Assembly (NCBI RefSeq): GCF_014138625.1
Contig: NZ_JACJHY010000003.1
Location: 124,001-188,000 of the forward strand
Direction of reading: 5' to 3'
Origin: Aminobacter ciceronei
GTDB taxonomy: Bacteria > Pseudomonadota > Alphaproteobacteria > Rhizobiales > Rhizobiaceae
Length of the DNA: 64,000 bases
Both the position numbers and the translations under genes were made by a program. Below are positions 42,050-64,000 of this stretch, one piece after another. The notes below the pieces were generated by a model. That model worked only from the letters and a program-made list of their open reading frames with translations, was not told where the DNA came from and made no database searches. How positions within the stretch are numbered: position 1 is the first letter of the stretch; every line of letters begins with the position of its first letter.

Positions 42050-42077
42050 TTGACACGACGCCGGGCAGTCATACTAT
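42050..42077 (+). promoter_or_regulatory. Promoter of riboswitch-nrdAB-cobF operon
   Basis: TTGACA (42050-42055), 16 bases, then TACTAT (42072-42077). The start of transcription would be near 42084, immediately before the riboswitch. Confidence 0.55.
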
Positions 42078-42085
42078 ATGTAGAC

Positions 42086-42275
42086 ATCGTGGTCTTCCGA
42101 GTTGATTCCAGCTCGGGAGCTAAGAGGGAAGCCGGTGCGCGATTTCGCAATGCCGGCGCTGCCCCCGCAACTGTAAGCAGTGAGTTGCTGTCGCGTAGTG
42201 CCACTGGCGCCAATGGGCGCTGGGAAGGCCAGACAGCAGCAATGACCTGCGAGCCAGGAGACCTGCCGCGATCGA
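42086..42275 (+). promoter_or_regulatory. Cobalamin riboswitch upstream of nrdA
   Basis: The conserved blocks appear in order: GGGAAGCCGGTG (42126), CGCTGCCCCCGCAACTGTAAGC (split by structure, 42157-42178), GCCACTGG, GGGAAGGCC (42222) and the B12 box GAGCCAGGAGACCTGCC (42251-42267). A GC-rich hairpin-forming stretch follows (about 42280-42310) as expression platform. In this class, bound adenosylcobalamin normally turns expression off. Confidence 0.95.
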
Positions 42276-42391
42276 GTCTGAACGTCCACGGGCGGGGTGT
42301 CCGGTGGTGCGCTTGCGTTCTGCTGGCTTGCGCCGGCCGAAATCCGGCATGCGTCCGCCCAAGGCCCTTCGCCCCCAAACCATCGGGGAAG

Positions 42392-46435: not shown

Positions 46436-46659
46436 CCTGGAACCGTCCCACCATTGCATCGGTCATGCCCGAACCCGAACAGGTGTTCCTGGCTTGGCTG
46501 GTCGCGCAGCCTGAAGGCGGCAACCTCCACGAGGCCGCCTCGCGGCAGGCCACTCGGCTCGCCGAATATGGTGGCAGGCATCCGGGGCCGCGCCGGCTCA
46601 GGCAATTGTTTCTGGACCTTGCCGCCGAACTCGGCGGCGGCACGGCCATGCCGTCATGA
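46426..46659 (+). CDS. Hypothetical small protein between nrdB and cobF
   Basis: The 77-residue product (M-G-L-T-W-N-R-P, ending G-T-A-M-P-S) looks mainly helical, with a basic middle ([11 protein letters not shown]). Its ATG overlaps the nrdB stop by ten bases and its stop overlaps the cobF start (ATGA), and GGTGGAG precedes it; such double coupling supports a real gene. I do not recognise the family. It may assist ribonucleotide reductase or corrin synthesis (inference from position only). Confidence 0.6.
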
Positions 46660-47414
46660 AGCGAAGGATTCTTGTCATCGGCATCGGTGCGGGCAATCCC
46701 GACTATGTCACGATCCAGGCTGTCGATGCGCTCAACCGGGTCAACGTCTTCTTCATCCCCGACAAGGGTATCGAGAAGGACGGGCTGGCGCGGGTCAGGC
46801 GCGAGATCTGCGAACGCTTCATCCGCGACCAGAGCTATCGCACCGTCGCGTTCGAGGTGCCTCGCCGCAGGCCGGCGGCGGAGGACTACGGCACCGCCGT
46901 CGCAGATTGGCATGACGCTGTCGAAGGCGTCTACCAACAGCTGCTCATGGAGGAACTCGAGGAAGACGAGTGCGGCGCGTTCCTCGTCTGGGGCGATCCG
47001 ACGCTTTACGACAGCACCCTGCGCATCCTCGACAGGCTGCAGGCCAAGGGCGGCTTCGAACTCGAATATGATGTCATTCCGGGTATCACCAGCATTCAGG
47101 CGCTTGCCGCCCGGCACAAGGTCACGCTGAACAGGATCGGCCAGTCGATCGCCATCACCACCGGTCGCAAGCTTGCGGAGGGTTTTCCCAACAATGCCGA
47201 CAGCGTCGTCGTCATGCTCGACGGCGAAGGTGCCTTCGCCGGTCTCGATGGTGATCTCGACATCTGGTGGGGCGCCTATGTCGGCACGCCGGATGAAATC
47301 CTGGTGTCGGGTAAGTTGCGCGAGGTCGTCGGCGACATCGAGCGCATCCGCAAACAGGCGCGCGAGCAAAATGGCTGGATCATGGACACCTATCTGCTGA
47401 AGCAGCCGGACTAG
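46656..47414 (+). CDS. cobF: Precorrin-6A synthase (deacetylating)
   Basis: The 252-residue tetrapyrrole methylase has the opening glycine loop I-G-I-G-A-G-N-P-D-Y-V-T and the downstream W-G-D-P-T-L-Y-D-S-T and V-I-P-G-I-T-S-I-Q motifs. CobF is specific to aerobic cobalamin synthesis, where it methylates C-1 and removes an acetyl group. Being in the same riboswitch-controlled operon as B12-independent nrdAB, it is made when B12 is low. The other cob genes are outside the window. Confidence 0.92.
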   Translation: MKRRILVIGIGAGNPDYVTIQAVDALNRVNVFFIPDKGIEKDGLARVRREICERFIRDQSYRTVAFEVPRRRPAAEDYGTAVADWHDAVEGVYQQLLMEELEEDECGAFLVWGDPTLYDSTLRILDRLQAKGGFELEYDVIPGITSIQALAARHKVTLNRIGQSIAITTGRKLAEGFPNNADSVVVMLDGEGAFAGLDGDLDIWWGAYVGTPDEILVSGKLREVVGDIERIRKQAREQNGWIMDTYLLKQPD

Positions 47415-47495: not shown

Positions 47496-47528
47496 GACCT
47501 GACGGCTTTGTCGCCGAAAGGATGAAAA

Positions 47529-51338
<3,810 letters not shown>

Positions 51339-51354
51339 CAACACGATGACATCA

Positions 51355-51394
51355 CATGGGCTCTGTCGCCTTTGCGCTGAGCCCGTGTCGTTTT
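51355..51394 (+). terminator. Terminator hairpin after metH
   Basis: GGGCTC (51358-51363) pairs with GAGCCC (51379-51384) over a 15-base loop, with CA/TG extending the stem and TTTT at 51391-51394. It separates metH from the next riboswitch leader. Confidence 0.55.
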
Positions 51395-51441
51395 CATGCT
51401 CGTGCCCGGCCACCAATCCGTGGTCTGATCCGGTCATGTTC

Positions 51442-51624
51442 AAGGTGCTGCTTCGAGTGTGAGACGAAGCGGAGAATTGGGAAGCCGGTGAGAAGCCGGC
51501 GCTGCCCCCGCAACGGTGGCGGAGTTATTGTTTCGACGCGAGACCACTGGGCCAGCCGGCCTGGGAAGGTGTCGAGACAGTCCGAAAGGACAGCTCCGAA
51601 GCCCGGAAACCAGCCTTGAACCTG
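51442..51624 (+). promoter_or_regulatory. Cobalamin riboswitch upstream of Rieske oxygenase gene
   Basis: Conserved blocks in order: GGGAAGCCGGTG (51480), CGCTGCCCCCGCAACGGT (51500-51517), ACCACTGGG (51543), CTGGGAAGGTG (51561) and the B12 box GCCCGGAAACCAGCCTTG (51601-51618). A GGCGGA...TCCGCC stem at about 51660-51692 can form the expression platform before the gene start at 51751. By analogy with most proteobacterial cases, B12 should repress. Confidence 0.93.
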
Positions 51625-51750
51625 ACAGAACTCGACTGATCGCGGTGGGCGGTCAAGAGGCGGATCGTTGCTGCACGGACCTCTGCGTCCGCCGGCTGGC
51701 GTTCTTCCCAAATCAAGCCACCCGTTCAGTCCTTGGTGCGAGGACAGGAC

Positions 51751-52998
51751 ATGGATGCGAAGAACGAAATGCTGAAGCTGCTGCGCGGACGCCGCGACGG
51801 GTTCAGCCTGGCACAGCCCTTTTACACCGACCCGGATTTCTACCGGCTCGACCTCGAGCTGATCTGGTACCGCGACTGGCTGTTTGTCGGCCATGACTGC
51901 GAACTGGCCAAGCCGGGCAGCTTCTTCACCGTCCAGGTCGGCGACTATCCCGTCGTGCTCGTCCGCGACCAGAAGGGTGAGCTGCGCGCCTTCCACAATT
52001 CCTGCCGCCACCGCGGCAGCCGCGTCTGCACCACGGACAAAGGTACGGCGGCCAAGCTCGTCTGTCCTTACCACCAGTGGACCTACGAACTCGACGGACG
52101 CCTGCTGTTTGCGCGCCAGATGGCGGAAGGTTTCGACAAGAGCCAGTTCGGCCTGAAGCCGGTCGCCTGCGAATCCGTCGGCGGCTACATCTTCATCTGC
52201 CTCGCCGACGAGCCCGCCGACTTCGCGCCGATGCGGGCCATGGTCGAGCCGTACCTGCTGCCGCACCGGCTGCGCGAAGCCAAGGTCGCCTTCGAAAGCA
52301 CAATCGTCGAGAAGGGAAACTGGAAGCTGGTCTGGGAAAACAACCGCGAGTGTTACCACTGCGCCGGCAATCACCCTGAGCTGTGCAAGACCTTTCCCGA
52401 GGCGCCGAACGTTACCGGCGTCAATGGCGCCGAAAGCGATCCCGAAATGCTGGCGCACTGGGCAAAGTGCGAGGCGGTGGGGTTGCCGAGCAAGTTCCGC
52501 ATCGATGCCGGCGGCCAGTACAGGGCGACACGCGCGCCACTGCTGCGTGACGCGGTGAGCTACACCATGTCGGGCAAGCGCGCAGTGCGGAAAAACCTCT
52601 CCGACAGCGTCTCGGCCGACAGGATCGGCACGCTGCTGCTCTATCATTATCCGACAACCTGGAACCATGTGCTCGGCGACCATGCCGTCACCTTCCGCGT
52701 GCTGCCGATCAGCGCCACGGAAACGGCCGTCACCACCAAATGGCTGGTTCACAAGGATGCCGTCGAAGGCGTCGACTACGACCTGGCCGAACTGACCCAT
52801 GTTTGGACCGAGACCAACGACCAGGACCGCCGCATCGTCGAGGAAAATGCCTTCGGCATCAAATCGCCGGCCTACGAGCCCGGGCCTTATTCGGAGGAAC
52901 ACGAGGGCGGCGTCATGCAGTTCATCGAATGGTACGTCGGCTTCATCGAACCGCGGCTGGCCGACGGTGGCAAGCCGGTCCTGCGAAACGTCGCCTGA
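51751..52998 (+). CDS. gbcA: Rieske oxygenase, glycine betaine monooxygenase-like
   Basis: The 415-residue protein has a Rieske 2Fe-2S site (C-R-H-R-G-S and C-P-Y-H-Q-W, about residues 88-112) and a mononuclear iron site (N-R-E-C-Y-H-C-A-G-N-H). Length and order fit GbcA, which demethylates glycine betaine to dimethylglycine with formaldehyde release; stachydrine and carnitine oxygenases are close relatives. AGGACAGGAC precedes the ATG. The partner reductase gene follows 13 bases later. The gene lies behind a cobalamin riboswitch. Confidence 0.8.
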   Translation: MDAKNEMLKLLRGRRDGFSLAQPFYTDPDFYRLDLELIWYRDWLFVGHDCELAKPGSFFTVQVGDYPVVLVRDQKGELRAFHNSCRHRGSRVCTTDKGTAAKLVCPYHQWTYELDGRLLFARQMAEGFDKSQFGLKPVACESVGGYIFICLADEPADFAPMRAMVEPYLLPHRLREAKVAFESTIVEKGNWKLVWENNRECYHCAGNHPELCKTFPEAPNVTGVNGAESDPEMLAHWAKCEAVGLPSKFRIDAGGQYRATRAPLLRDAVSYTMSGKRAVRKNLSDSVSADRIGTLLLYHYPTTWNHVLGDHAVTFRVLPISATETAVTTKWLVHKDAVEGVDYDLAELTHVWTETNDQDRRIVEENAFGIKSPAYEPGPYSEEHEGGVMQFIEWYVGFIEPRLADGGKPVLRNVA

Positions 52999-53011
52999 CC
53001 GGGAGAAGGGC

Positions 53012-54114
53012 ATGAACGCGATGACCGAGCTTGGCCTTTACCGCAACCTCGACGAAATGGCGCCCTGGAACGACCGGCTCCAGGTACTGGAGGTCATCGG
53101 CGTCACCGACGAGGCGCCCGACGTCAGGACCTTCACCTTCCGCTCCGACAACCAGACCTGGTTCCGCTACAAGCCGGGCCAGTTCGTGACGCTCGAACTG
53201 CCGGCCGAACCGGCACCCGTCATGCGCACCTACACGCTGTCGTCCAGCCCGTCGCGGCCGTTCTCCATCGCCGTCACCGTCAAGGCGCAGGCGGGCAGCG
53301 TCGGCGCTGGATGTTCGACCATCTGAAGCCGGGCGTCCGCATCAAGGCCTATGGCCCTTCAGGCGACTTCTCGCTGCACCAGCATCCGGCCGCCAAATAT
53401 CTGTTCGTCTCGGCCGGGTCCGGCATCACGCCGATGATGTCGATGCTGCGCTGGCTAAACGACTGCGCGCCGTGGACGGACGTTGCCTTCGTCAACTGCG
53501 CGCGCCGTCCGGAAGAAATCATCTTCCGGAAGGAGCTCGAACTGCTGGGCACACACATGCCCGGACTGTCGCTCGGTTTCATGATCGAGGAGCGGTCGAG
53601 CCGCGAAGGCTGGTTCGGCCATATGGGCCGCATCGATGCGGTGCGACTGCCGTTGCTGTCGCCCGACTTCCGCGAGCGTGAGGTGTTCTGCTGCGGCCCA
53701 GATCCCTTCATGCGCGCCGTGCGCGGCATGCTCGAGTCTTCCGGCTTCGACATGTCCCGCTACCATCGGGAAAGCTTTGCCGCACCTGCCGTCGAGGAGG
53801 TCCCCGCGCCGTTCTCGACGCCGGGCGGGGACAGCGAGACTGTGCCGGATGCCGTCCTGCCGGTTCGTTTCGCGTTGTCTGATGTCGACGCCGACTGCCT
53901 CTCGGGCCAGACCGTGCTGCAGACGGCGCGTGCTTCGGGCGTGCGTATTCCGGCGGCCTGCGAGTTCGGCCTATGCGGCACCTGCAAGGTCAGGAAGCTC
54001 TCCGGCGAGGTCGAGATGAGCCACAATGGCGGCATCCTCGACCACGAGATCGACGATGGCTTCATCCTTGCCTGCTGTTCGAAGCCGCTGTCGGCGATCG
54101 AGGTCGAGGCGTAG
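53012..54114 (+). pseudogene. gbcB: GbcB-like ferredoxin reductase, frameshifted
   Basis: Two frames together make a complete GbcB-type reductase. The first (53012-53326) holds the FAD domain start (R-T-Y-T-L-S-S-S-P-S) and stops soon after V-K-A-Q-A-G-S-V-G. The second (from about 53311) resumes at W-M-F-D-H-L-K-P-G with the NAD domain and a C-terminal 2Fe-2S site (C-E-F-G-L-C-G-T-C...C). The shift is minus one, consistent with loss of one or four bases near 53303-53312 in a GC-rich run. It is either a real disruption or a sequencing error. It would pass electrons to the Rieske oxygenase. Confidence 0.8.
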
Positions 54115-54163: not shown

Positions 54164-54922
54164 TCAGCGGTGGTGCAGCACCAGCGGCGCGCCGCCGACG
54201 TCGATGACGTCCATGCCGTAGCCGAAGACGCGGGCCAGCATGTCGGGCTGCAGCACCTCCGCCGGCGATCCGTCGGCGACGACGCACCCCGATTTCATTG
54301 CAACGATCCGGTCGGCATAGACGGCGGCGTGATTGATGTCGTGCAGCACGACGATGACGGTGCGTTTGTCGTTGTCGGCGGCCGCGCGCAGGTCACGCAT
54401 CAACTGGCGGGCAAACAGCATGTCGAGATTGTTCAGCGGTTCGTCCAGCAGCATGTAGTCGGTGCCCTGGCAGAAGGCCATGGCGACCATGGCGCGCTGG
54501 CGCTGGCCGCCCGACAGATTGTCGAGGAAGCGGTCGGCGAGATCCATCAGGCCGAACTGCTGCAAGGCCGCCTCAATCAGCTTCATGTCGTTTGCGTCGA
54601 TTCGCCCGCGCTGGTGCGGAAAGCGGCCGAAGCCGACGAGTTCGCGCACCTTGAGCCGGCTTGCCACCGCCGGGTCCTGGCGCAATATGGCGAGCGTCCT
54701 GGCCAGCTGGCGGCTTGGCGTCGTGTCGACCGGCAGGCCGTCGACCGAGATCGATCCGCTCTGCAGCGGCTGCAGCCGGGCGATCAGCGACAACAGGCTC
54801 GACTTGCCGGCGCCGTTGGGCCCGACCAGCGCCGTCACCCCACCCTTGGGCATGGTCAGCGACACATCCTCCAGGATTTGCGTGTCGCCGAGGCGCAACG
54901 AAACATTCTTGATCTCGATCAT
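54164..54922 (-). CDS. Ferric siderophore ABC transporter ATPase
   Basis: The 252-residue FecE/YclP-type ATPase has Walker A G-P-N-G-A-G-K-S-S, signature L-S-G-G-Q-R-Q-R-A, Walker B Y-M-L-L-D-E-P-L-N-N-L-D and the switch in V-L-H-D-I-N-H-A. It is last in the siderophore operon and its start overlaps the upstream permease stop (ATGA). It is convergent with the gbc genes. Confidence 0.92.
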   Translation of the reverse strand: MIEIKNVSLRLGDTQILEDVSLTMPKGGVTALVGPNGAGKSSLLSLIARLQPLQSGSISVDGLPVDTTPSRQLARTLAILRQDPAVASRLKVRELVGFGRFPHQRGRIDANDMKLIEAALQQFGLMDLADRFLDNLSGGQRQRAMVAMAFCQGTDYMLLDEPLNNLDMLFARQLMRDLRAAADNDKRTVIVVLHDINHAAVYADRIVAMKSGCVVADGSPAEVLQPDMLARVFGYGMDVIDVGGAPLVLHHR

Positions 54923-55860
54923 CGCTTGCTCGTTGTGATCAGCATGGCCAGGAAGACGAGGCCCCCCACGAATTCGATGACGACGCCGAGCGTCGCGGCA
55001 CCGCCCAGAAGATGCTGCAGCACCATCTGGCCGCCAAGCAGCACGATGACGGCGGTCAGCATCGCCGCCGGCAGCAACAGGTGATGGCGGCGGCTATCGA
55101 CGATGCGCTCGGCCAGCGCCACCACCAGAAGCCCGAAGAAGGTTACCGGCCCGACCAGCGCCGTCGACACCGCAACCAGGGCAGCCACCAAAAGCAGCAG
55201 CCCGGTCAGCGCCTTGGTCCATGACACGCCAAGCCCGGTGGCACTGTCGGCGCCGAGTGCCACGATGTCGAGCAGGTGGCGCTGGCGCCAGAGGATGATG
55301 GCGGCAATCGTCGTCACCACCAAGCCGATGACGACCAGGTCCGGCCGCACCGTGTTGAAGTCGGCGTAACTCGAACCTTGGACGACGGCGAATTCGTTCG
55401 GGTCGATCAGCCGCGCGATAAGCGAGGCGAGGCTGCGGAAAAGCACGCCGAGCACGACGCCGGTCAGCAGCAGCAGGCCGATGTCGAACCGCCGCCGCAG
55501 CATCGGCAGGAACAGTACCAGCGCCATGACCATCATCAGGCCGGCCTCGCCGGCGAATTTCAGGCGCGGGTCGAGCGCGACGTAACCGACGCTGCCGAGC
55601 GCCAGCACCAGCGCCATCTGGCCGAACAGGTAAAGCGCGTCGAGCCCCATGATCTGCGGCGTCAGCACCCGGTTTGCGGTCACCGTCTGGAACACCACCG
55701 TCGAGATGGCGATTGCCACGCCGACCTGAATCAGCGTCACCAGCCGCACGGCGCGCAGTTCGAGCGCGAAGGCGATGTTGCCGCGCAGGCCGATGGTCAT
55801 GAAGGCGACTGCCACCACCGCTGCAAGGGCGGCCAGGATCAGGAGACGCTTTTCAAGCAC
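54919..55860 (-). CDS. Ferric siderophore ABC transporter permease 2
   Basis: The 313-residue FecCD-family permease has eight to nine helices and the conserved G-P-V-T-F-F-G-L-L-V-V-A-L-A-E coupling region. The start is GTG at 55860, which overlaps the upstream permease stop by eight bases; the longer frame is low-complexity. It most resembles the YclO/FatC partner. Confidence 0.85.
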   Translation of the reverse strand: MLEKRLLILAALAAVVAVAFMTIGLRGNIAFALELRAVRLVTLIQVGVAIAISTVVFQTVTANRVLTPQIMGLDALYLFGQMALVLALGSVGYVALDPRLKFAGEAGLMMVMALVLFLPMLRRRFDIGLLLLTGVVLGVLFRSLASLIARLIDPNEFAVVQGSSYADFNTVRPDLVVIGLVVTTIAAIILWRQRHLLDIVALGADSATGLGVSWTKALTGLLLLVAALVAVSTALVGPVTFFGLLVVALAERIVDSRRHHLLLPAAMLTAVIVLLGGQMVLQHLLGGAATLGVVIEFVGGLVFLAMLITTSKR

Positions 55861-56815
55861 GCTGCGCCCGCCCGAACAGGATCCACAGGAACAGCCCCGA
55901 ACCGACGACGCCGAGCACGGTACCGACAGGAATTTCGTAGGGGTAGCGGATGACGCGGCTGACGACGTCACAGGCCAGCAGGAGTGTAGCGCCGGTGACG
56001 GCGACCCAAGGCAGGGCGCTCTTCAGATTGTCGCCCATCAGGCGCGAAACGAGATTGGGTACCACCAGTCCGACGAAAGGGATCATGCCGACGACGACGA
56101 CGGCCAGCGACGAGATCACCGCCACCATGACCAGGCCGAGCTGGACGATGCGTTGGTAGTTGAGGCCGAGCCCGAGGCTGACCTCGCGCCCCATCGCGGC
56201 GATGGTCAGCCGGTCGGCGACCCACCAGGCCAGCGCCACCATGGCAGCCGTGATCCACAGCAGCTCGTAGCGTCCGCGCAGCACGCCGGAGAACTCGCCA
56301 TTGGTCCAGACGTCGACATATTGCAAAAGGTCGGTCTGCCAGGCGATGAACGTCACCGCAGCCCCGATGACGCCGCCATAGACGAGGCCAAACAGCGGGA
56401 TGAGAAAGGGCTGCGTCGGCGGCAGCCGATGCGCGATGCCAAGGAAGATCGACGTGCCGGCAAGTGCGGTCACGCTGGCGCCCAGCGTCTTCATCGCGAT
56501 CGAGGCGGTCGGAAACAGCAAGGTCACGGCAAGCACGCCGAGCGCGGCGCTCTGGCCGGTGCCGGTGGTGATCGGCTCGACGAAGCGGTTGCGCACCAGG
56601 ATCTGCAGCACCAGCCCCGCAATCGCCAGGCCGGCGCCGGTCAGCACCACGGCCACGGTTCGCGGCAGGCGGCTGACCAGGAGAAGCTGTAGCGCACCGG
56701 CATCGGTGAACACGCTGTCCACAGGCAGATCATCGACGCCGATGCTCAGGCTGACGGCAAAAAGCCCGACGAGCCCGGCGGCGACGAGCAGCCGGATGTT
56801 GGGCAACGCTGCCAT
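55853..56815 (-). CDS. Ferric siderophore ABC transporter permease 1
   Basis: The 320-residue FecCD-family permease has the L-P-R-T-V-A-V-V-L-T-G-A-G-L-A-I-A-G opening, G-E-F-S-G-V-L and the G-M-I-P-F-V-G-L-V-V-P-N-L coupling helix. The ATG shares a base with the stop of the binding protein gene. It corresponds to YclN/FatD. Confidence 0.88.
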   Translation of the reverse strand: MAALPNIRLLVAAGLVGLFAVSLSIGVDDLPVDSVFTDAGALQLLLVSRLPRTVAVVLTGAGLAIAGLVLQILVRNRFVEPITTGTGQSAALGVLAVTLLFPTASIAMKTLGASVTALAGTSIFLGIAHRLPPTQPFLIPLFGLVYGGVIGAAVTFIAWQTDLLQYVDVWTNGEFSGVLRGRYELLWITAAMVALAWWVADRLTIAAMGREVSLGLGLNYQRIVQLGLVMVAVISSLAVVVVGMIPFVGLVVPNLVSRLMGDNLKSALPWVAVTGATLLLACDVVSRVIRYPYEIPVGTVLGVVGSGLFLWILFGRAQRA

Positions 56816-57720
56816 CACTTGGCCTTGGCGAAGGCTTGCTCGATGGTGGACAGCACGCGATGCGTCGACTGCACGCCACCGGCGGCGATGTAGAAGTCGG
56901 GCGACGGTAGGAAGATCACCTGGCCCTTCTTCCATGCGGTCGTCTGGGCTACCAGCTCGTTGTCGAGCGTTGCCTTGGCGCCCTGGTCGTTCGAGCCGAT
57001 CGCGGCGGCGCGGTCGAGCACCAGCAACCAGTCCGGGTTGGTCTTGCTGATGAATTCGAACGAGATCGCCTCGCCATGCGTTGCCGCCTCGACGTCGGCG
57101 ACAGCCGGCTCCAGGTCGAGCGTCTTGTGCACCCAGCCGAAGCGCGAGCCGGGGCCGTAGGCGGTGATCTTCGGGCCGTTGGTCATCAGGATCAGCGCCT
57201 TGCCCTTGCCCTTGACGGCCTGCCTTGCGGCTTCGACCGCGGCGTCCAGCTCCTTGGCGGCAGCGGCTGCTTCGTCCGGCTTGGCGAACAGCTCGCCATA
57301 GGCGGCGAGGCGCGCCTTGGCCTGGGTCACCAGGTCGTCGCCATCCATCGTCATGTCGATCGTCGGCGCCACGCGCGACGTCGCCTCGACCTGCGTCGAC
57401 GAACGGCCGCCGACGATCACCAGATCGGGGGCGAGCGCATTCAGCGCCTCGAGGTCTGGCTCGAACAGCGTGCCGACGACGGTAGCGCCCTTGGCGACGC
57501 CGGCGAGTTCCGGCACGAACAGCTTGTCGGGGATGCCGGCCGGCTGGATGCCGAGGCGGTTCAGCGTATCGATCGCGGCGATGTCATAGACGGCGACCTT
57601 GGCCGGCACCTTGTCGATGGTCTTGGGGCCGGTTGCGGTGGTGATCTCGACCGCAAGGGCGGGTGCGGTGGCAATAGCCAGTGCCGCCGAAAGAGTGGCC
57701 AGCAGGCGAACAAACTTCAT
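56815..57720 (-). CDS. Siderophore-binding protein, YclQ/FatB type
   Basis: The 301-residue periplasmic protein has a signal peptide (ending A-L-A-V) and a helical-backbone class III binding fold, with the YclQ-like runs P-A-K-V-A-V-Y-D-I-A-A-I-D-T-L, D-L-V-I-V-G-G-R-S-S and the closing G-G-V-Q-S-T-H-R-V-L. There is no lipobox cysteine, as usual for Gram-negative proteins. FatB/YclQ proteins bind ferric petrobactin, in agreement with the asb-type genes just upstream. Confidence 0.87.
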   Translation of the reverse strand: MKFVRLLATLSAALAIATAPALAVEITTATGPKTIDKVPAKVAVYDIAAIDTLNRLGIQPAGIPDKLFVPELAGVAKGATVVGTLFEPDLEALNALAPDLVIVGGRSSTQVEATSRVAPTIDMTMDGDDLVTQAKARLAAYGELFAKPDEAAAAAKELDAAVEAARQAVKGKGKALILMTNGPKITAYGPGSRFGWVHKTLDLEPAVADVEAATHGEAISFEFISKTNPDWLLVLDRAAAIGSNDQGAKATLDNELVAQTTAWKKGQVIFLPSPDFYIAAGGVQSTHRVLSTIEQAFAKAK

Positions 57721-57792
57721 CTGTTATCTCCGTCCTTGTCGGTGGGCGTTGGTTGGATAAAACCTTCGCCAAATACTCTTCTTTTGCGCATA

Positions 57793-58638
57793 TCAGAAGC
57801 TGCCGGTGCGCAGCAAGACTTCGTTGGGGCTTTTCAGACGCTTGATTGCTTGTCGGTCACTGCGCAGGACATTGAAGCAATCATTGCCGAACCATTCGAG
57901 CGAGGCCTCGACAGTGGGGTCGTCGCGCAGCTCTGCAAGGAAGCGCCGATAGTCGACCTTGCCGTCGAACAGCGGCGTCATGCCTTCGCGGCTGCCGGCT
58001 GCAGCATAGACATTAGCCGGCTCGAAGACCCTGAGATCGGCGCGCGAGCGCACATTCTTGAGATGGTAATGGCGGATATGGGGACGCATCGCTGAATGCG
58101 CGGCGACGGGGTCATCGCCGCCTTCCCAGACATGCAGCGTGTCAAAATTGATCTTGAACGCCGGATGGTCGACCTCGGCGACCAGCCTGAGCGTCGAGGC
58201 GCCGCAATCGGCCAGCGTGCCGGGATGCGTTTCGGCCAAAAGTTCTAGGTCGAAATCCGCGGTCATCCCGGCAACCTCGTGCAGCCGCGCGGTGAGGATA
58301 CGCCTGACCTCGGCCGGGGTATCCCGGCTGCCGCGGCTGCCGGCAAAGGTGCGGATCTTGCCCGCCCGCCAATGCCGGGCGAGGCGGCACAGGTCGACGG
58401 TCTTCTTGCGCAAGGTTTCGGCGTCGCCGTCGAGCGGCAGGTAGTCGCTGACCATCGGCACATAGAGCCCTTGCCCGGCCAGCCAGTCGGCGTCGCATTG
58501 CGGCTGGTAGGCCAGGTTACGCGCATGCGCGCCCCACAGCTCGATGCCCTGGAAGTCGTTGGCCCCAGCCCATCTGGCGATGTCCTCGAGCGAGACGAGA
58601 TGATGGCGGAAGGTGATGGTGCAGAGCGAGATTTTCAT
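57793..58638 (-). CDS. asbF: 3-Dehydroshikimate dehydratase, AsbF-like
   Basis: The 281-residue TIM-barrel protein has the AsbF/xylose-isomerase-like metal ligands in order: Glu in L-L-A-E-T-H-P, Asp in K-I-N-F-D-T-L-H, His in I-R-H-Y-H-L-K-N and Glu in A-S-L-E-W-F. AsbF makes 3,4-dihydroxybenzoate, the special catechol of petrobactin. The ATG overlaps the upstream stop (ATGA). Confidence 0.85.
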   Translation of the reverse strand: MKISLCTITFRHHLVSLEDIARWAGANDFQGIELWGAHARNLAYQPQCDADWLAGQGLYVPMVSDYLPLDGDAETLRKKTVDLCRLARHWRAGKIRTFAGSRGSRDTPAEVRRILTARLHEVAGMTADFDLELLAETHPGTLADCGASTLRLVAEVDHPAFKINFDTLHVWEGGDDPVAAHSAMRPHIRHYHLKNVRSRADLRVFEPANVYAAAGSREGMTPLFDGKVDYRRFLAELRDDPTVEASLEWFGNDCFNVLRSDRQAIKRLKSPNEVLLRTGSF

Positions 58639-59936
58639 TCGGCTGCTCCGAGCAGTTCGGCGGGAAGTGTGTGGGGAATGCCCTTTGTGGCGCACCAGGC
58701 CTGGAAGGCTTCGCCGAGGTGCGCCTTGATCCGCTTTTCGAGCCCGTCCAGCGTGTCGAGGCGGCAGAACACGTCGTCGGCGAGGCTGTGGTCCTCGGTC
58801 TGTGCCAGCTTCATGACGGCGTAGTGCAGCGTCTTGAAGTCCTGGATCACCCGCTCGATCTGGTCGCACCAATGGTCGAAATCGGCATTGGCCAGCTTCA
58901 TCTCGCGCCAGAAGAAGGCGAAGCCGTGCTCATAGGCATATTTGCGGATCGAGATGACAGGCACCTCGCGCAGCGCCGCACCAAGATCGGCGAGCTTGAC
59001 GCCGTCCCTGCCGTCGAGATGGGCTGCAACGATGCGACGCACGCCGTCGACCAGCGGATTGTGGTCGGGCTGGTAGCAGGCAAGGAAGAAGTCGCGCAGG
59101 TCGGTGGCGGCGGGCACGCGCGCTTCCAGCCGGTCGAAGATGTAGCCGCCGCCCACGGTTGGCTGGCGGATGGCGTGGATGACCTTGTCGCGGGCGATCT
59201 GACCTTCCCAGCGGAAGTCGGGATCGTTGACCTGCCAGATCTTCGGATCGTCGGTCTTCTCGATCATCAGATAATGCGGGAAGGGGTTCTGGTTGAACTT
59301 GTTCTCCCGCTCCGGCAGGTGGAACAGGTCCAGCATCACCATCAGATATTCGCTGTCGCGCTTGCGCTCGAGCAGGTCGAGCATGACGACGAGGTTTTGG
59401 TCCTTCGACCGTGCCGGGTCGTACCAACAATGCATGCCGACGCCGTAGAGCCGCTGGTACCAGGCGTGGAAGAAATCGTGGTTGATCGACTTGTCGTGAT
59501 AGGCGAGCTGCCAGCGCTCGTTGATGGCGAAGCCGGCGTCCCAGACACTGAAATAGAACGGCCGCTGGTCGATGCCGGAGCGCTTCAGCGCGTCGCAGAC
59601 GCTGCTGACGAAGCAATGCACCTTGATGTCGATATAGTCCTCGCCATGCACGCCTTCACCGGCCGGCGCGGAGCGCTCTGCAGCGACACTCGCCTCGCCG
59701 GTGAACAGCTGCGCCAGCTCGCGCACCGTCTCGATGTCCTGGCGGTTGATTGCTTCCTCCGGCGCGGCCAGGCCGAACTCGAGCTCCAGGCTGAGGAAGA
59801 TCTCGAGAATCAGCACCGAGTCGAGATAGAGGTCCTCGTTGAGCCGTGCCTCGGGTCCGAAACGCTCGACATGGGCGTGCTTCATGTGATCGTGCAGCAC
59901 TGTGCCGATCGCTTCGATCACCTGTTCGGTGTTCAT
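58635..59936 (-). CDS. asbDE: Fused AsbD-like carrier protein and AsbE-like condensing protein
   Basis: The 433-residue protein has an N-terminal acyl/aryl carrier domain (about residues 1-80) with phosphopantetheine Ser40 in L-Y-L-D-S-V-L-I-L-E, a Glu/Ala linker, and an AsbE-like domain (about 100-430) with Y-F-S-V-W-D-A-G-F-A-I-N-E and Y-E-H-G-F-A-F-F-W-R-E. In Bacillus anthracis these are separate genes. AsbD carries the 3,4-dihydroxybenzoyl group and AsbE transfers it to spermidine. The start shares TGATG with the upstream gene. Confidence 0.85.
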   Translation of the reverse strand: MNTEQVIEAIGTVLHDHMKHAHVERFGPEARLNEDLYLDSVLILEIFLSLELEFGLAAPEEAINRQDIETVRELAQLFTGEASVAAERSAPAGEGVHGEDYIDIKVHCFVSSVCDALKRSGIDQRPFYFSVWDAGFAINERWQLAYHDKSINHDFFHAWYQRLYGVGMHCWYDPARSKDQNLVVMLDLLERKRDSEYLMVMLDLFHLPERENKFNQNPFPHYLMIEKTDDPKIWQVNDPDFRWEGQIARDKVIHAIRQPTVGGGYIFDRLEARVPAATDLRDFFLACYQPDHNPLVDGVRRIVAAHLDGRDGVKLADLGAALREVPVISIRKYAYEHGFAFFWREMKLANADFDHWCDQIERVIQDFKTLHYAVMKLAQTEDHSLADDVFCRLDTLDGLEKRIKAHLGEAFQAWCATKGIPHTLPAELLGAAE

Positions 59937-61204
59937 CACGCGACCTCCCTCGTCACTGCCGTGAACTGGCCGGCGGCATGCTGTGCCGCCACTTCGCGCC
60001 GGCTGATCTTGCCGTTGGCCTGGCGTGGTATCGCGTCGACCTGGACGATCTCCATCGGCAACTGGTGGCTGGCGAGGTTCTGGGCGCACCATTGCCGCAC
60101 GACGGGCCCCTCCAGCCGCTCGGTGGCGCTGAACAGCAGGCCGACCCGCTCGCCGGCCAGCGTGTCAGCCTTGCGGAAAGCGACGGCGTCGGTGACCGAA
60201 GGCATCGACATCACCACGTCTTCGACCTCGCGCGGATAGACGTTGAGGCCGGAGACATTGATGGTGTCGTCGAGCCGAGAGACGAACACCAGCATGCCAT
60301 CAGGCCTGTAGTAGCCGAGGTCGCGGGTAGCGACGGCGCCATTCGGACCGCTGACGACAATTTCGGATGGCGCAACCGCGCTGTTGCTGCAGCTGACCGC
60401 GTGATGCGGCAGGACGAAGCCCATGTCGGCCGCGTCGGTGACATCGGGGTTGACCGCGATGCAGCCGGTTTCCGAGCAGCCATATTGCTGGAACAGATGC
60501 GTGGTGCGTGCCCGGATGCGGGCGAACCACGGCTCAGGCAGCACCGTGCCGGAGGTCATCGCCGCGAACAGCTTCTCGCCCTCGGGCATCAGCCGGGCCA
60601 GCGTGTGCAGCACCGCCGGCGACGAATAGAGCAATGGCCGCTCGATAGCGCGCAGGGTCCTGAGCAGGTATTTCGGATTGCCGGCATCGACGATGACGGG
60701 CGTCCGGCCGCGCTTCAGGGCGACGAGGATGCCGCAGATCAGCCCGTAGGAATGCGTCGTCGGGCAGGCGATGACCGGCGTCATCTCCTCCGGCTTGCGG
60801 AAGGTCGCGACATAGCTTGCCACCTCGGCGTCGATCTCGGCCCAGCCGCGGGCGATGCATTTCGGCGCGCCCGTCGTGCCCGAGCTCATCTGCAGGAGCT
60901 GACCGGTGGCGCCTGGCGGGGTTTCGCTCGACAGCGTCTCGGCGTCGAGGCTGTTGAAATAGAGCGCGTGGCAGTCCGCCGCGACGGCCAGGCGGCGTGC
61001 CGCGGCATGCGGCGTTGCCGGATGGATAGGGAAGACGCTGGCGCCGATGTTGCGGATGGCGAAGAACAGCGCCAGCCAGGCCGCCGTGTCGCTGAAACAG
61101 ACGGCATAGCGCCCGTTCGGGTCAAGTCCGGCCCGGTCGGCGCTTTGCGCCACCATCTGCTCGAACTTCTGTCGGTCATAGTACCTGTCGTCGATCTGGA
61201 GCAT
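59936..61204 (-). CDS. asbC: 3,4-Dihydroxybenzoate-activating enzyme, AsbC-like
   Basis: The 422-residue adenylate-forming enzyme has the ATP motif Q-M-S-S-G-T-T-G-A-P-K (about residue 105), Y-G-C-S-E-T-G, and a late R-L-D-D-T-I-N-V-S-G-L-N-V-Y-P-R-E-V-E-D segment, then the invariant Lys in N-G-K-I-S-R. It is shorter than typical aryl-CoA ligases, as is AsbC. It loads the catechol onto the carrier domain next door. AAGGAAAA precedes the ATG at 61204. Confidence 0.87.
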   Translation of the reverse strand: MLQIDDRYYDRQKFEQMVAQSADRAGLDPNGRYAVCFSDTAAWLALFFAIRNIGASVFPIHPATPHAAARRLAVAADCHALYFNSLDAETLSSETPPGATGQLLQMSSGTTGAPKCIARGWAEIDAEVASYVATFRKPEEMTPVIACPTTHSYGLICGILVALKRGRTPVIVDAGNPKYLLRTLRAIERPLLYSSPAVLHTLARLMPEGEKLFAAMTSGTVLPEPWFARIRARTTHLFQQYGCSETGCIAVNPDVTDAADMGFVLPHHAVSCSNSAVAPSEIVVSGPNGAVATRDLGYYRPDGMLVFVSRLDDTINVSGLNVYPREVEDVVMSMPSVTDAVAFRKADTLAGERVGLLFSATERLEGPVVRQWCAQNLASHQLPMEIVQVDAIPRQANGKISRREVAAQHAAGQFTAVTREVA

Positions 61205-61214
61205 CGATTTTCCT

Positions 61215-62933
61215 TCAGGCGTCGGGGGTGGAGAGGGGGTTGGGGACGGCATGGCTGGAGCGGCCGGTGTTCAGCTTGCGGGCGAGCAGGGCTTCAGCCG
61301 TCAATCTCGGGCGCGCGAGGCCGAGCATGTCCTGCCGGTGGCCGAGCCCATGAGTGGCGGCGTACTCGGCCAGCATCTGCCGGACGGCGTTCCAGAAGTC
61401 GGCTTCGCGCAGACCGTAGAATGTCTGCAACAGGTGCGAGACCTCGGCCAGGTTGAAGACGAACAGCGCGTCCGTCACCAATTCGCCGAGCGTCTCGACA
61501 TCTTCCATCCAGTAATACTGGTCGGGCGGTGCGTCCCGATAGTCTGGGTCGAGCGCCAGGAAATCGGGCGCCCTGTCCGGCTCATGCAGGAAGCCAGGCA
61601 CGTATTCGACACTGTCGTGGAAGTCGCGTAGCACGAGCCTGACAGGCCAACCGTCGCGGTGGACGAGCACCATGTTCTGTCCATGCGCCTCGGTGGCGAT
61701 GCCGTGCCCGACGAGCAGATGCCAGACAGGCAGCACAGCGACTTGCAACAATTGCTCCAGCCAGTTGCGGAAGCCGTGGCGGTGCACCCACGCGTCGATG
61801 AATGGGCGTCCGTCATGCTCGACAGCCATCAGTGCGTTGAACGGCACGGCCTGTTCGCCGTCACCGAGCGTTGCGCTGACGCTGCGGCGCCAGATCGCTG
61901 CGAGCTGGCCGGCCAGCGGCCCGTCGCGGCCAGCGATGATGCCGGCATATTCGTCGAGCACGACAAGCGGATAGGTCGTTTCGAACAGCGGATCGCCGGC
62001 GACGATTTCGCCGAGCCAGCGCGAGATGACAGGCGCCGTGCACACCGAATGCGGCTCGATTGTCCGCAGCGACGACGAGTTGCTCATGTTCATCGACAGC
62101 TTGACGTTTGCCGCCTCGGTGCGGTCGGTATTGAGCAGCGTCCGGATCGACTGGCTCGCAACGTAACGGTCGCCGGCGATGCCGGCGAAATGCGCCGTGC
62201 CATCGGCAAGCCATGGCTCAAGCAGCGTCTCCCGCAGCGACTGCCACTGCCAGGGATGCAGCGGCAGCAGGCAGTAGTCCGCCCAGCCAAGGCCGAGGCG
62301 CGCGCGCTCGCGGTCGAGCTGCGCACAAACGTCCGCCCCAAGCTCGGCGATCCAGAACGCGCCTTCATCCCCAGGCAAGCGCTGGCTCACCTCTGTGCGC
62401 TTCATCAGCAGCCAGGCGAGCTGGAAGCTGTTGCCGGCTTCGGGGCCGAAATCGCGATGGTCGCTTTCGCTGAACCCCGTCCGCGCCTTGAAGCATGGGT
62501 GATAGGCGTGGCCCTCGTGCAGGGCGCCTTCCAGCGCGGCGAAGGCCAGGTCGCGACGCGGACCACTGTGCAGGTTGCGCTCGTTCCAACTGCAATGCGC
62601 CACCGTGCTGTGCAGCTCGCTGAGCAGCCGGCGCCGGTCTTCCACCGAGGCCGGCAGGCTCGCGACCAGCTCGTCGAGTGTCGCCGGTTGCCAGAAGCCG
62701 TCGCGGCCCTCGCTCTCGACCGAGCCGGCCGAAAGGCGGATCCGGCCGAAAGCGCCTGCCATGCCCGAGCAGCGAAACCGCTTGGCGCCATCCGACCAGG
62801 TGAAGACGAGCTGTGCGCCGTCGCCGGTTACACCAGCCACGACGAGCCCCTCATACAGCACCGCCTCGACCAATTGCCTGACCACGCGCTCATCGGGGCG
62901 GCCGGGCAGGTCAAGAGGCAAGGGCACTGCCAT
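61215..62933 (-). CDS. asbB: NIS siderophore synthetase, AsbB-like (IucA/IucC family)
   Basis: The 572-residue NRPS-independent siderophore synthetase has the family landmarks G-H-A-Y-H-P-C-F-K-A-R-T-G-F, L-L-P-L-H-P-W-Q-W, S-M-N-M-S-N-S-S-S-L-R-T-I and H-G-Q-N-M-V-L-V, followed by L-R-D-F-H-D-S-V-E-Y. It joins citrate to a polyamine. The ATG at 62933 lies 23 bases inside the end of the upstream paralogue; GGAG is unusually close to it, so translation may depend on coupling. Confidence 0.9.
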   Translation of the reverse strand: MAVPLPLDLPGRPDERVVRQLVEAVLYEGLVVAGVTGDGAQLVFTWSDGAKRFRCSGMAGAFGRIRLSAGSVESEGRDGFWQPATLDELVASLPASVEDRRRLLSELHSTVAHCSWNERNLHSGPRRDLAFAALEGALHEGHAYHPCFKARTGFSESDHRDFGPEAGNSFQLAWLLMKRTEVSQRLPGDEGAFWIAELGADVCAQLDRERARLGLGWADYCLLPLHPWQWQSLRETLLEPWLADGTAHFAGIAGDRYVASQSIRTLLNTDRTEAANVKLSMNMSNSSSLRTIEPHSVCTAPVISRWLGEIVAGDPLFETTYPLVVLDEYAGIIAGRDGPLAGQLAAIWRRSVSATLGDGEQAVPFNALMAVEHDGRPFIDAWVHRHGFRNWLEQLLQVAVLPVWHLLVGHGIATEAHGQNMVLVHRDGWPVRLVLRDFHDSVEYVPGFLHEPDRAPDFLALDPDYRDAPPDQYYWMEDVETLGELVTDALFVFNLAEVSHLLQTFYGLREADFWNAVRQMLAEYAATHGLGHRQDMLGLARPRLTAEALLARKLNTGRSSHAVPNPLSTPDA

Positions 62934-64000
62934 CTCCGTGATAGAGGCCCGCAATGGCCGCGAAGAGGGGGTTGGGCTGGCGGGCATAGAGCGAGCGCTC
63001 GTTGCTTGTCTGCAGCTCGTCGACATCGAACAGCCGCGTCATCAGATTGGCCTTGAACGCTACCGTCGGGCGGTCGAGTACGCCGCGGACGAATTCGCGG
63101 CCGACGCCCGATGTCGTTCGCGACAGCACCTCCAGCCGGTCCCGCAGCATGTTCAGCAGGACCTCCTCTTCGACCAGGCCGTCATGGCCCATGCGGGCGA
63201 TGACCGAGAAGATCTGGTTGACGATCAGGTAGTAGGCGAAGCGGTCCTGGATATCGCGGTCGTCGTAGTAGAGCGAGGCGATCTCCGCCGCCTCCGGCAC
63301 ATGCTGGCTGAGGCGAGCGCGGTGGCGTTTCGAGAGGTAGAAGCCCTGATTGTCGCGATAATAACCCGTGCTCGGATAGCCCTGGCTGATGTCGATCAGG
63401 CTGTTCTGCTGGTGCGCTTCGAGTGCCAGGCCGAAATCGTCATAGAGGCAGACCAGCGGGTCGAGCGCGCAGTCGAGATAGCGCTGGAACCAGTAGCGGC
63501 AGATCAGCTCGGGATGCGTGCCGTCTCTTAGGCCGATATTGTAGATGATGCGTTCGAGCCGCGACCATTCACCCGGCAGCGGCTCGGCGGTCAGTGCTGC
63601 GATGGTGATCTTGCCATTGCCCTTGCAGGCGACAAACGGGTTTTCGCGCAGGATCACCTCGAACCCGCTTTCGCCGCGACCGGGCAGGTCGAGCGTGATG
63701 TAGACCGGATCGGAAATGATTCTGAAGCGGCCGTCGCCGCCGCCGATGCCTGCCCGCTGCACGAGCTTGGCCATGGCAACGCCGGCCTCCAGCTCCTTGC
63801 GGCTGTTGACCCTGAGCGAATTGGTGATCCGCACCGGCAGCGAGAACTTCAGCATCCATGGCAGATCTTTGTTGTAAACCGTGCGCACGGAGGACGTAGC
63901 GGTGAATGCCGGGCCGGCCGGACCGATGAGGCGCAGCTTGCCCGATGCCTGCAGGGCGCGGATGCCGTCGTCGAGCAAGAGCGCTTCGGCCTGCAGCGGA
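62911..64000 (-). CDS. asbA: NIS siderophore synthetase, AsbA-like, C-terminal part (runs off right edge)
   Basis: About 362 C-terminal residues of an IucA/IucC-family enzyme lie in the window, and the frame stays open to the edge. Visible landmarks are T-S-S-V-R-T-V, K-F-S-L-P-V-R-I-T-N-S-L-R, A-L-E-A-H-Q-Q-N-S and the FhuF-like end. With its paralogue it would build the citrate-bis(spermidine) core. The promoter, the N-terminus and any iron box are outside the window. Confidence 0.88.
   Translation of the reverse strand, partial: PLQAEALLLDDGIRALQASGKLRLIGPAGPAFTATSSVRTVYNKDLPWMLKFSLPVRITNSLRVNSRKELEAGVAMAKLVQRAGIGGGDGRFRIISDPVYITLDLPGRGESGFEVILRENPFVACKGNGKITIAALTAEPLPGEWSRLERIIYNIGLRDGTHPELICRYWFQRYLDCALDPLVCLYDDFGLALEAHQQNSLIDISQGYPSTGYYRDNQGFYLSKRHRARLSQHVPEAAEIASLYYDDRDIQDRFAYYLIVNQIFSVIARMGHDGLVEEEVLLNMLRDRLEVLSRTTSGVGREFVRGVLDRPTVAFKANLMTRLFDVDELQTSNERSLYARQPNPLFAAIAGLYHGDGSALAS

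Follow-up and report, generated by a model that had tools for sequence, protein, structure and literature searches.

In a 64,000-nt window of the Aminobacter ciceronei draft genome (RefSeq GCF_014138625.1, 6.77 Mb in 96 contigs; contig NZ_JACJHY010000003.1, positions 124,001 to 188,000, with window coordinates used below), a cobalamin riboswitch stands in front of a gene for a Rieske oxygenase resembling glycine betaine monooxygenase (GbcA), which is followed by a GbcB-like reductase. We consider it likely that this operon provides a B12-free, oxygen- and iron-dependent betaine N-demethylase, induced by betaine and vetoed by B12, as a backup of the corrinoid-dependent MtgB-MtgC(-MtgD) route. 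The proposal draws on features computed from the DNA: the riboswitch and its covarying P13 stem, the group-Vb residues of the oxygenase, an operator-like repeat upstream, MttB-family and MtgC-like genes elsewhere in the genome, and the co-occurrence of riboswitch and MttB across genomes. The features of the operon are as follows.

51364-51391, plus strand: TGTCGC-N16-TGTCGT direct repeat, a possible operator for a GATase-1-like AraC regulator (GbdR/CdhR class)
51426-51632, plus strand: cobalamin riboswitch aptamer RF00174 (115.6 bits, gathering score 31.5, E 2.8e-28)
51505-51511, plus strand: C-rich L5 loop CCCCCGC, expected kissing partner of L13 (read from sequence)
51600-51615, plus strand: B12 box of the gbc subtype, AGCCCGGAAACCAGCC (same box, with C or T at the third position, in 50 of 80 named loci)
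51637-51655, plus strand: P13/L13 hairpin with loop CGGTGGG, after the aptamer (loop motif conservation, stem covariation)
51740-51744, plus strand: Shine-Dalgarno-like GAGGA (read from sequence; AGG core in at least 90% of 27 aligned leaders)
51751-52998, plus strand: GbcA-like Rieske oxygenase of group Vb, 415 aa, ATG start (Pfam Rieske and Ring_hydroxyl_A domains)
53012-53326, plus strand: GbcB-like reductase, N-terminal, FAD-binding part (NF058606, 73.4 bits; frame stops early)
53311-54114, plus strand: GbcB-like reductase, C-terminal, NAD-binding and 2Fe-2S part (NF058606, 269.9 bits; other frame)

A complete cobalamin riboswitch precedes the oxygenase gene

An earlier note on this DNA had placed a complete B12 riboswitch before the Rieske gene. 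The RF00174 match indeed covers all model positions (1-189 of 189) and is not cut off; its true start is 51426, and the 51442 given by the note lies 16 bases inside it. From the riboswitch end to the Rieske gene start there are 118 nt. The L5 and L13 names used for this leader are those of the riboswitch class in general. A post-aptamer CGGNGGG loop, of a type that could pair with the C-rich L5, was present in 48 of 51 loci, and in 27 of the 51 leaders, picked by hand and aligned, five of the seven P13 stem pairs carried changes on both sides. The covariation score of this stem was 0.379, compared with 0.249 after shuffling (0 of 500 shuffles reached 0.379) and at most 0.174 when slid, although these controls correct incompletely for relatedness. 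No sigma-70-like promoter was found in 51330-51800, and the sole plus-strand terminator-like match, 51500-51521, lies inside the aptamer. An anti-sequestor pairing of the P13 region with the stretch before the ribosome site, appealing by eye in the Mesorhizobium group, was rejected when its duplex energies proved no better than those of shuffles.

The arrangement recurs among relatives. In an order-level sample (the order sample below) of 397 genomes, 95 of which had an oxygenase relative at E 1e-60, Rfam scans of 29 loci placed a riboswitch directly upstream in 22; none was found upstream in L020, L022, L025, L026, L028, L033 and L038, where a permissive scan also returned no cobalamin match. 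Eight further loci yielded riboswitches in L069 and L070, and scanning found none upstream in L083-L102. For the named loci (the best 80 of 596) we built our own model, R1, from 25 riboswitches, and it placed a riboswitch just upstream in 50 of the 80, plus one ambiguous locus (L165). The distance from B12-box end to start codon was 109-156 nt in 47 of these 50, and all 50 riboswitches were of one subtype, AACGGT followed by the box AGYCCGGAAACCAGCC. Only one of the 11 RF00174 sites of the source genome has the gbc-subtype box, namely the one described here; of the other ten, nine have AACTGT with AGYCAGGAGACCTGCC, and the last lacks an exact box. We also observed a second, divergent cobalamin riboswitch upstream of the gbc riboswitch in three loci (L016 3253-3450, L030 813-1017 and L156 5293-5497), which in L016 and L030 is of the common AACTGT subtype.

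The oxygenase carries the group-Vb signature

The description of the genes as gbcA/gbcB-like in the earlier note holds at the family level, as GbcA and GbcB are their best NCBIfam matches, but the oxygenase stays below the GbcA equivalog cut-off (NF058607, 523.7 of 670 bits). Clade Vb enzymes demethylate glycine betaine or proline betaine and are marked by an Asn in place of the aromatic Tyr203 of CntA (PMC7948474). Aligned according to this rule, the Asn of our oxygenase is N198, two residues ahead of the bridging E200. The Rieske ligands (C85, H87, C105, H108), the mononuclear iron ligands (H203, H208, D359), E200 itself and the C201/C204 pair were invariant in 13 aligned sequences. The nearest solved chains were 3n0q (545.1 bits) and the stachydrine demethylase Stc2 (3vca, 544.8 bits; also 4qup); Stc2 is alike in its iron-ligand and Cys-pair positions by alignment but differs in having Ala223 where the Aminobacter enzyme has Thr222. 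To our knowledge, no riboswitch is associated with Stc2. The oxygenase probably strips methyl groups from betaine, with glycine betaine as the most likely substrate.

The closest named relative of the oxygenase among the best 80 loci is from Aminobacter carboxidus (96% identity), and no second relative was found in the source genome at E 1e-10. A Rieske paralogue of about 34% identity is present in relatives of the same family (L101, L102, L043); an Rfam PYLIS_3 (mttB) match lies near it in L101 (1847-1946) and L102 (4587-4686), and in L043 (11249) it begins shortly 3' of the riboswitch-controlled pair.

Riboswitch and MttB-family genes occur together

The earlier note had read the Rieske system as a B12-free alternative for betaine demethylation and had proposed looking for mttB-like genes and for their co-occurrence with this riboswitch. 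MttB-family genes (PF06253) were found in 125 of the 397 order-sample genomes, the source genome included; at most three candidates were scored per genome in this sample, so its copy numbers are lower bounds, and all candidates were scored in the named genomes. In the order sample MttB accompanied 25 of 25 riboswitch-bearing rows as against 10 of 22 riboswitch-less rows, counts that leave out L092 (fragmented Rieske gene), 13 outgroup rows and L068. The named genomes gave 50 of 50 with the riboswitch and 9 of 29 without, after L165, with its partial riboswitch match 1.3 kb upstream, had been dropped as ambiguous from these counts and from the tree. On a combined tree, MttB was present in 71 of 71 riboswitch-bearing and 19 of 51 riboswitch-less rows (Fisher 1.9e-16, phylogeny ignored); five identical proteins were removed from it, and its rows are genes, so that some genomes are repeated (e.g. 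G150, G254, G377). The co-occurrence is thus strongly positive and gives the B12-free-alternative reading strong comparative support.

It is nonetheless possible, if rather improbable in our estimate, that riboswitch and MttB were lost jointly in a few clades for unrelated causes and merely travel with lineage. Independent pairs are few (six in the order sample, seven in the combined tree), and the sign test stays above 0.05 with a median p of 0.25 in both samples. Yet no pair ran in the opposite direction in either test: on supported branches of the combined tree, a mean of 3.0 pairs went the same way, 0.0 the opposite way and 4.0 showed no difference. Joint absence is also spread over several separate clades, comprising the Rhizobium leguminosarum/etli-type, Agrobacterium-Martelella and Brucellaceae clades, Agrobacterium vitis, G131 and a clade near Roseobacteraceae. 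Two titled entries, Bacillus subtilis SK6B4 (L155) and Marinicella sp. W31 (L162), have Rieske genes that fall among Brucellaceae and beside Martelella, respectively, and are probably mislabelled or contaminated.

Other B12-related characters follow a different split, which also argues against joint loss by lineage. MetH was present in all 24 riboswitch-less genomes tested and in 14 of the 16 tested that bear the riboswitch, ruling it out as the correlate of the riboswitch. All 12 riboswitch-less genomes tested had two to seven RF00174 matches elsewhere, some below cut-off, so a general loss of cobalamin riboswitches is ruled out for these 12. Given both results, the riboswitch-less genomes are not generally B12-free.

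A proposed corrinoid counterpart in the same genome

The search for mttB-like genes in the source genome was successful, and one of those found (G000:C2:177355-178854) lies beside a gene for an MtgC-like corrinoid protein (215.8 bits, cut-off 370) and one for a DUF1638 protein. This MttB is 82-84% identical to those of G295, G361, G418 and G423 and 68% identical to that of G406. G418, G423 and G406 have a single MttB each with all candidates scored, and G295 and G361 have one match each among three candidates scored. The orthologous locus of G295 also holds genes resembling MtgD, MtgE/BHMT and RACo, and in 8 of 13 loci examined MttB has an MtgC-like gene cluster close by. In Ruegeria pomeroyi, genetics of mtgC and mtgD showed that both are needed for betaine demethylation, MtgBCDE genes are described as co-localised in Sinorhizobium meliloti, and the substrate of MtgB was assigned by homology (PMC12478193). 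By gene content, the MttB locus of the source genome and its G295 orthologue resemble the MtgBCDE system, and we apply the label "MtgB type" on the grounds of PF06253, orthology and neighbours, since the MtgC and MttB matches lie below cut-offs. The source genome also has six matches to PF16350, a domain of dimethylglycine and sarcosine dehydrogenases, and these could mark enzymes that take the demethylation product onward.

The same B12 veto might instead govern the use of a different quaternary amine, of which proline betaine (stachydrine) is the foremost candidate; an MttB paralogue would then take the B12-dependent role. We regard this as unlikely. Stc2 matches the oxygenase as well as 3n0q does, proline betaine, gamma-butyrobetaine and other substrates are used by some relatives of MttB (PMC12478193), and several riboswitch-bearing genomes hold 4-16 MttB genes. 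However, five riboswitch-bearing genomes (G406, G418, G423, G455 and G476) have one MttB only, all candidates having been scored, and in three of them that single gene is close to the MtgC-adjacent gene described here (83-84% identical in G418 and G423, 68% in G406). The MtgC-like clusters in 8 of the 13 such loci, together with Thr222 in the position of Ala223 of Stc2, likewise speak against this reading.

An operator-like repeat upstream of the riboswitch

The half-sites of CdhR are GGTCGC with a 15-bp spacer and are very similar to the sites of GbdR, SouR and ArgR (PMC5806209). In 81 loci we searched the DNA ahead of the riboswitch, or ahead of the gene in loci lacking it, for TGTCG direct pairs with a spacing of 18-24 bp. 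Such pairs occurred in 34 of the 51 loci with a riboswitch and in 21 of the 30 without one (L165 being counted among the latter), as compared with a shuffled mean of 0.34 of 81. The spacing of the pairs was 21 bp, corresponding to a 15-bp spacer, in 48 of 58 and 22 bp in 8 of 58. The distance from the repeat to the B12 box is nearly fixed, at 222-246 bp in 32 named riboswitch-bearing loci and 236 bp in the window. The repeat may mark a betaine-responsive promoter and adds evidence to the reading of the operon as a B12-free demethylase.

Only one of the 21 riboswitch-less loci with the repeat, that of Ciceribacter lividus (L133), comes from a genome with MttB, so within one promoter type MttB tracks the riboswitch with hardly an exception. 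Among the MttB-positive riboswitch-less named loci, eight of nine lack the repeat. A genome-wide use of the pattern was rejected: 21-bp spacing gave 25 matches compared with 17 for the reversed control, 22-bp spacing gave 11 compared with 8, and 34 of the 36 sites were covered by a frame of at least 200 codons, leaving the pattern informative solely in aligned upstream regions. In Aminobacter carboxidus (L200 7037; L226) an operator-like repeat lies ahead of an MttB gene of the roughly 40%-identity class, and a site identical to that of L200 is found in the source genome at G000:C2:248318.

The reductase lies in two frames

The earlier note had described a gene pair. By descent this is correct, as both halves downstream of the oxygenase match GbcB, but the reductase is not one open frame in this assembly, and neither piece reaches the equivalog cut-off of 500 that NF058606 sets over one protein. 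In 62 of 81 loci (the 80 named loci and the window), the 2.4 kb or so downstream held both parts, which formed a single open frame in 60 of the 62, the two exceptions being the window and L162, which has a stop inside the span. No reductase was found within that distance in the other 19 loci, two of whose contigs end early. A riboswitch-less Rhizobium clade (L127, L132, L138, L142-L146) yielded no GbcB-like reductase in the roughly 2.4 kb 3' of the oxygenase.

The two frames reflect either a draft error or a recent break. If the latter, the reductase could be a pseudogene in this strain, and the oxygenase would use a foreign reductase or not run at all. Such decay would account for the split, and we judge it unlikely: Aminobacter carboxidus (L103), whose oxygenase is 96% identical, keeps both parts within a single open frame, the oxygenase and riboswitch of the window are intact, and a sequencing error is possible in a draft of 96 contigs.

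Proposed mechanism and its weak points

In the model that we favor, of a betaine-induced and B12-vetoed backup demethylase, a GbdR-class activator bound at 51364-51391 would turn the promoter on when betaine is present, and the nascent leader would then sense cobalamin. Binding of B12 would stabilize the L5-L13 kissing contact and hold the leader in an OFF state, with betaine being demethylated by MtgBCD. When B12 is low and betaine is present, the Rieske enzyme would be made and the methyl group released oxidatively. What we infer here is which activator acts, which substrate is used, in which direction control runs and how the leader would block expression. A more elaborate version, in which the gbc riboswitch is a distinct subtype tuned to one corrinoid form (e.g. 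methylcobalamin), reads the corrinoid pool used by MtgC and forms an AND-NOT gate with a betaine-activated promoter that chooses between two chemically unrelated demethylases, is speculative and, in our opinion, improbable.

Several observations weigh against the proposed backup role. The phylogeny-aware sign test was not significant in the order sample or the combined tree, and a riboswitch-less GbcA-like gene occurs together with MttB in 19 combined-tree rows; the named cases are Ciceribacter lividus, Methylocapsa sp. S129 (L159), Mesorhizobium sp. CA8 (L166) and six metagenome-assembled genomes. At the level of the leader, an alternative pairing that would free the ribosome site had a median z of -0.46 over 48 loci, with 2 of 48 below -2, and the spacer of the window repeat is 16, one base wider than the 15 published for CdhR (PMC5806209). 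As for the proteins, the reductase frame is broken in this assembly, and the MtgC and MttB matches fall under the curated cut-offs of the models that they match. The GbcA cut-off missed by our oxygenase was missed also by 10 of 10 other alphaproteobacterial relatives tested (478.6-513.3 bits), and it follows that this model is narrow and does not decide the matter. In two of the MttB-positive riboswitch-less order-sample loci (L072, L076), a 686-aa neighbour appears DgcA-like by eye.

Neighbouring genes

The earlier note had drawn a parallel with nrdAB nearby, and these genes do have a cobalamin riboswitch of their own. Two further genes lie between both window riboswitches.

42073-42284: nrdA/nrdB cobalamin riboswitch (RF00174 match)
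46656-47414: cobF
47529-51338: metH, with 87 bases from its end to the second riboswitch

The position of metH, a gene that the earlier note leaves unmentioned, raises a different explanation, that the Rieske pair supplies methionine or one-carbon units, with the methyl group as formaldehyde, when MetH fails without B12, and that it does not replace MtgB. Apart from metH lying directly upstream, the MetE N-terminal domain was not found in the source genome, and a TGTCG repeat stands at the metH start (47509). We consider this explanation very unlikely, as MetH is as common in riboswitch-less as in riboswitch-bearing genomes (24 of 24 and 14 of 16), and only 6 of 41 neighbourhoods, counting the window, had a metH-type gene within about 8 kb. 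The repeat at the start of metH (47509-47535) reads TGTCGC-N15-TGTCGC, a form like that of the repeat before the Rieske gene. Downstream of the reductase, on the minus strand (54164-63026), the translations include frames resembling an ABC transporter set (ATPase, two permeases and a binding protein) and frames like those of a siderophore-type synthesis cluster.

Relation to known systems

It is already known that cobalamin riboswitches control B12-free isozymes. Isozymes of B12-dependent enzymes form a regulon category (PMC3766115), and a metE riboswitch is listed for Mesorhizobium loti (PMC5948670). The unit described here is like metE and nrdAB under such riboswitches, the nrdAB of the window included, in that a B12-free enzyme is found in genomes also holding a B12-dependent counterpart. 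Those enzymes are biosynthetic, with MetH and NrdJ as partners, whereas ours would be a catabolic demethylase with MtgB-MtgC as partner, and the operator-like repeat suggests a second, substrate-driven input that sets it apart from them. Compared with the glycine betaine monooxygenases GbcAB/BmoAB, it shares the oxygenase and reductase pair, GbcA/GbcB as best NCBIfam matches and the group-Vb residues, and differs in lying below the equivalog cut-offs and in the cobalamin riboswitch in front. MtgBCDE of Ruegeria pomeroyi and Sinorhizobium meliloti is proposed to carry out the same reaction, betaine to dimethylglycine (PMC12478193), but it is corrinoid-dependent and belongs to an unrelated protein family, and we therefore propose it as a counterpart and not a relative.

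A literature search of limited scope found no paper linking a cobalamin riboswitch to glycine betaine monooxygenase. The words "betaine" and "dioxygenase" are absent from the main text of PMC3766115, and the sole mention of "riboswitch" in PMC12478193 is a reference title on a glycine riboswitch. A Rieske pair behind a B12 element may have been noticed before, and a search for ardX/frdX returned no B12-titled paper among the matches listed. Rodionov et al. reportedly listed B12-element genes of unknown function in 2003 (J Biol Chem), perhaps including an ardX-frdX pair.

If our proposal is true, the few B12-free backup enzymes so far placed under B12 riboswitches would be joined by a catabolic one. 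In soil, symbiotic and marine bacteria, the supply of B12 would then be tied to how they use betaine, which is a major osmolyte and store of methyl groups, and low B12 should shift betaine demethylation from the corrinoid to the oxygen-dependent enzyme where both systems are present, as in Mesorhizobium, Sinorhizobium and the Roseobacter group.

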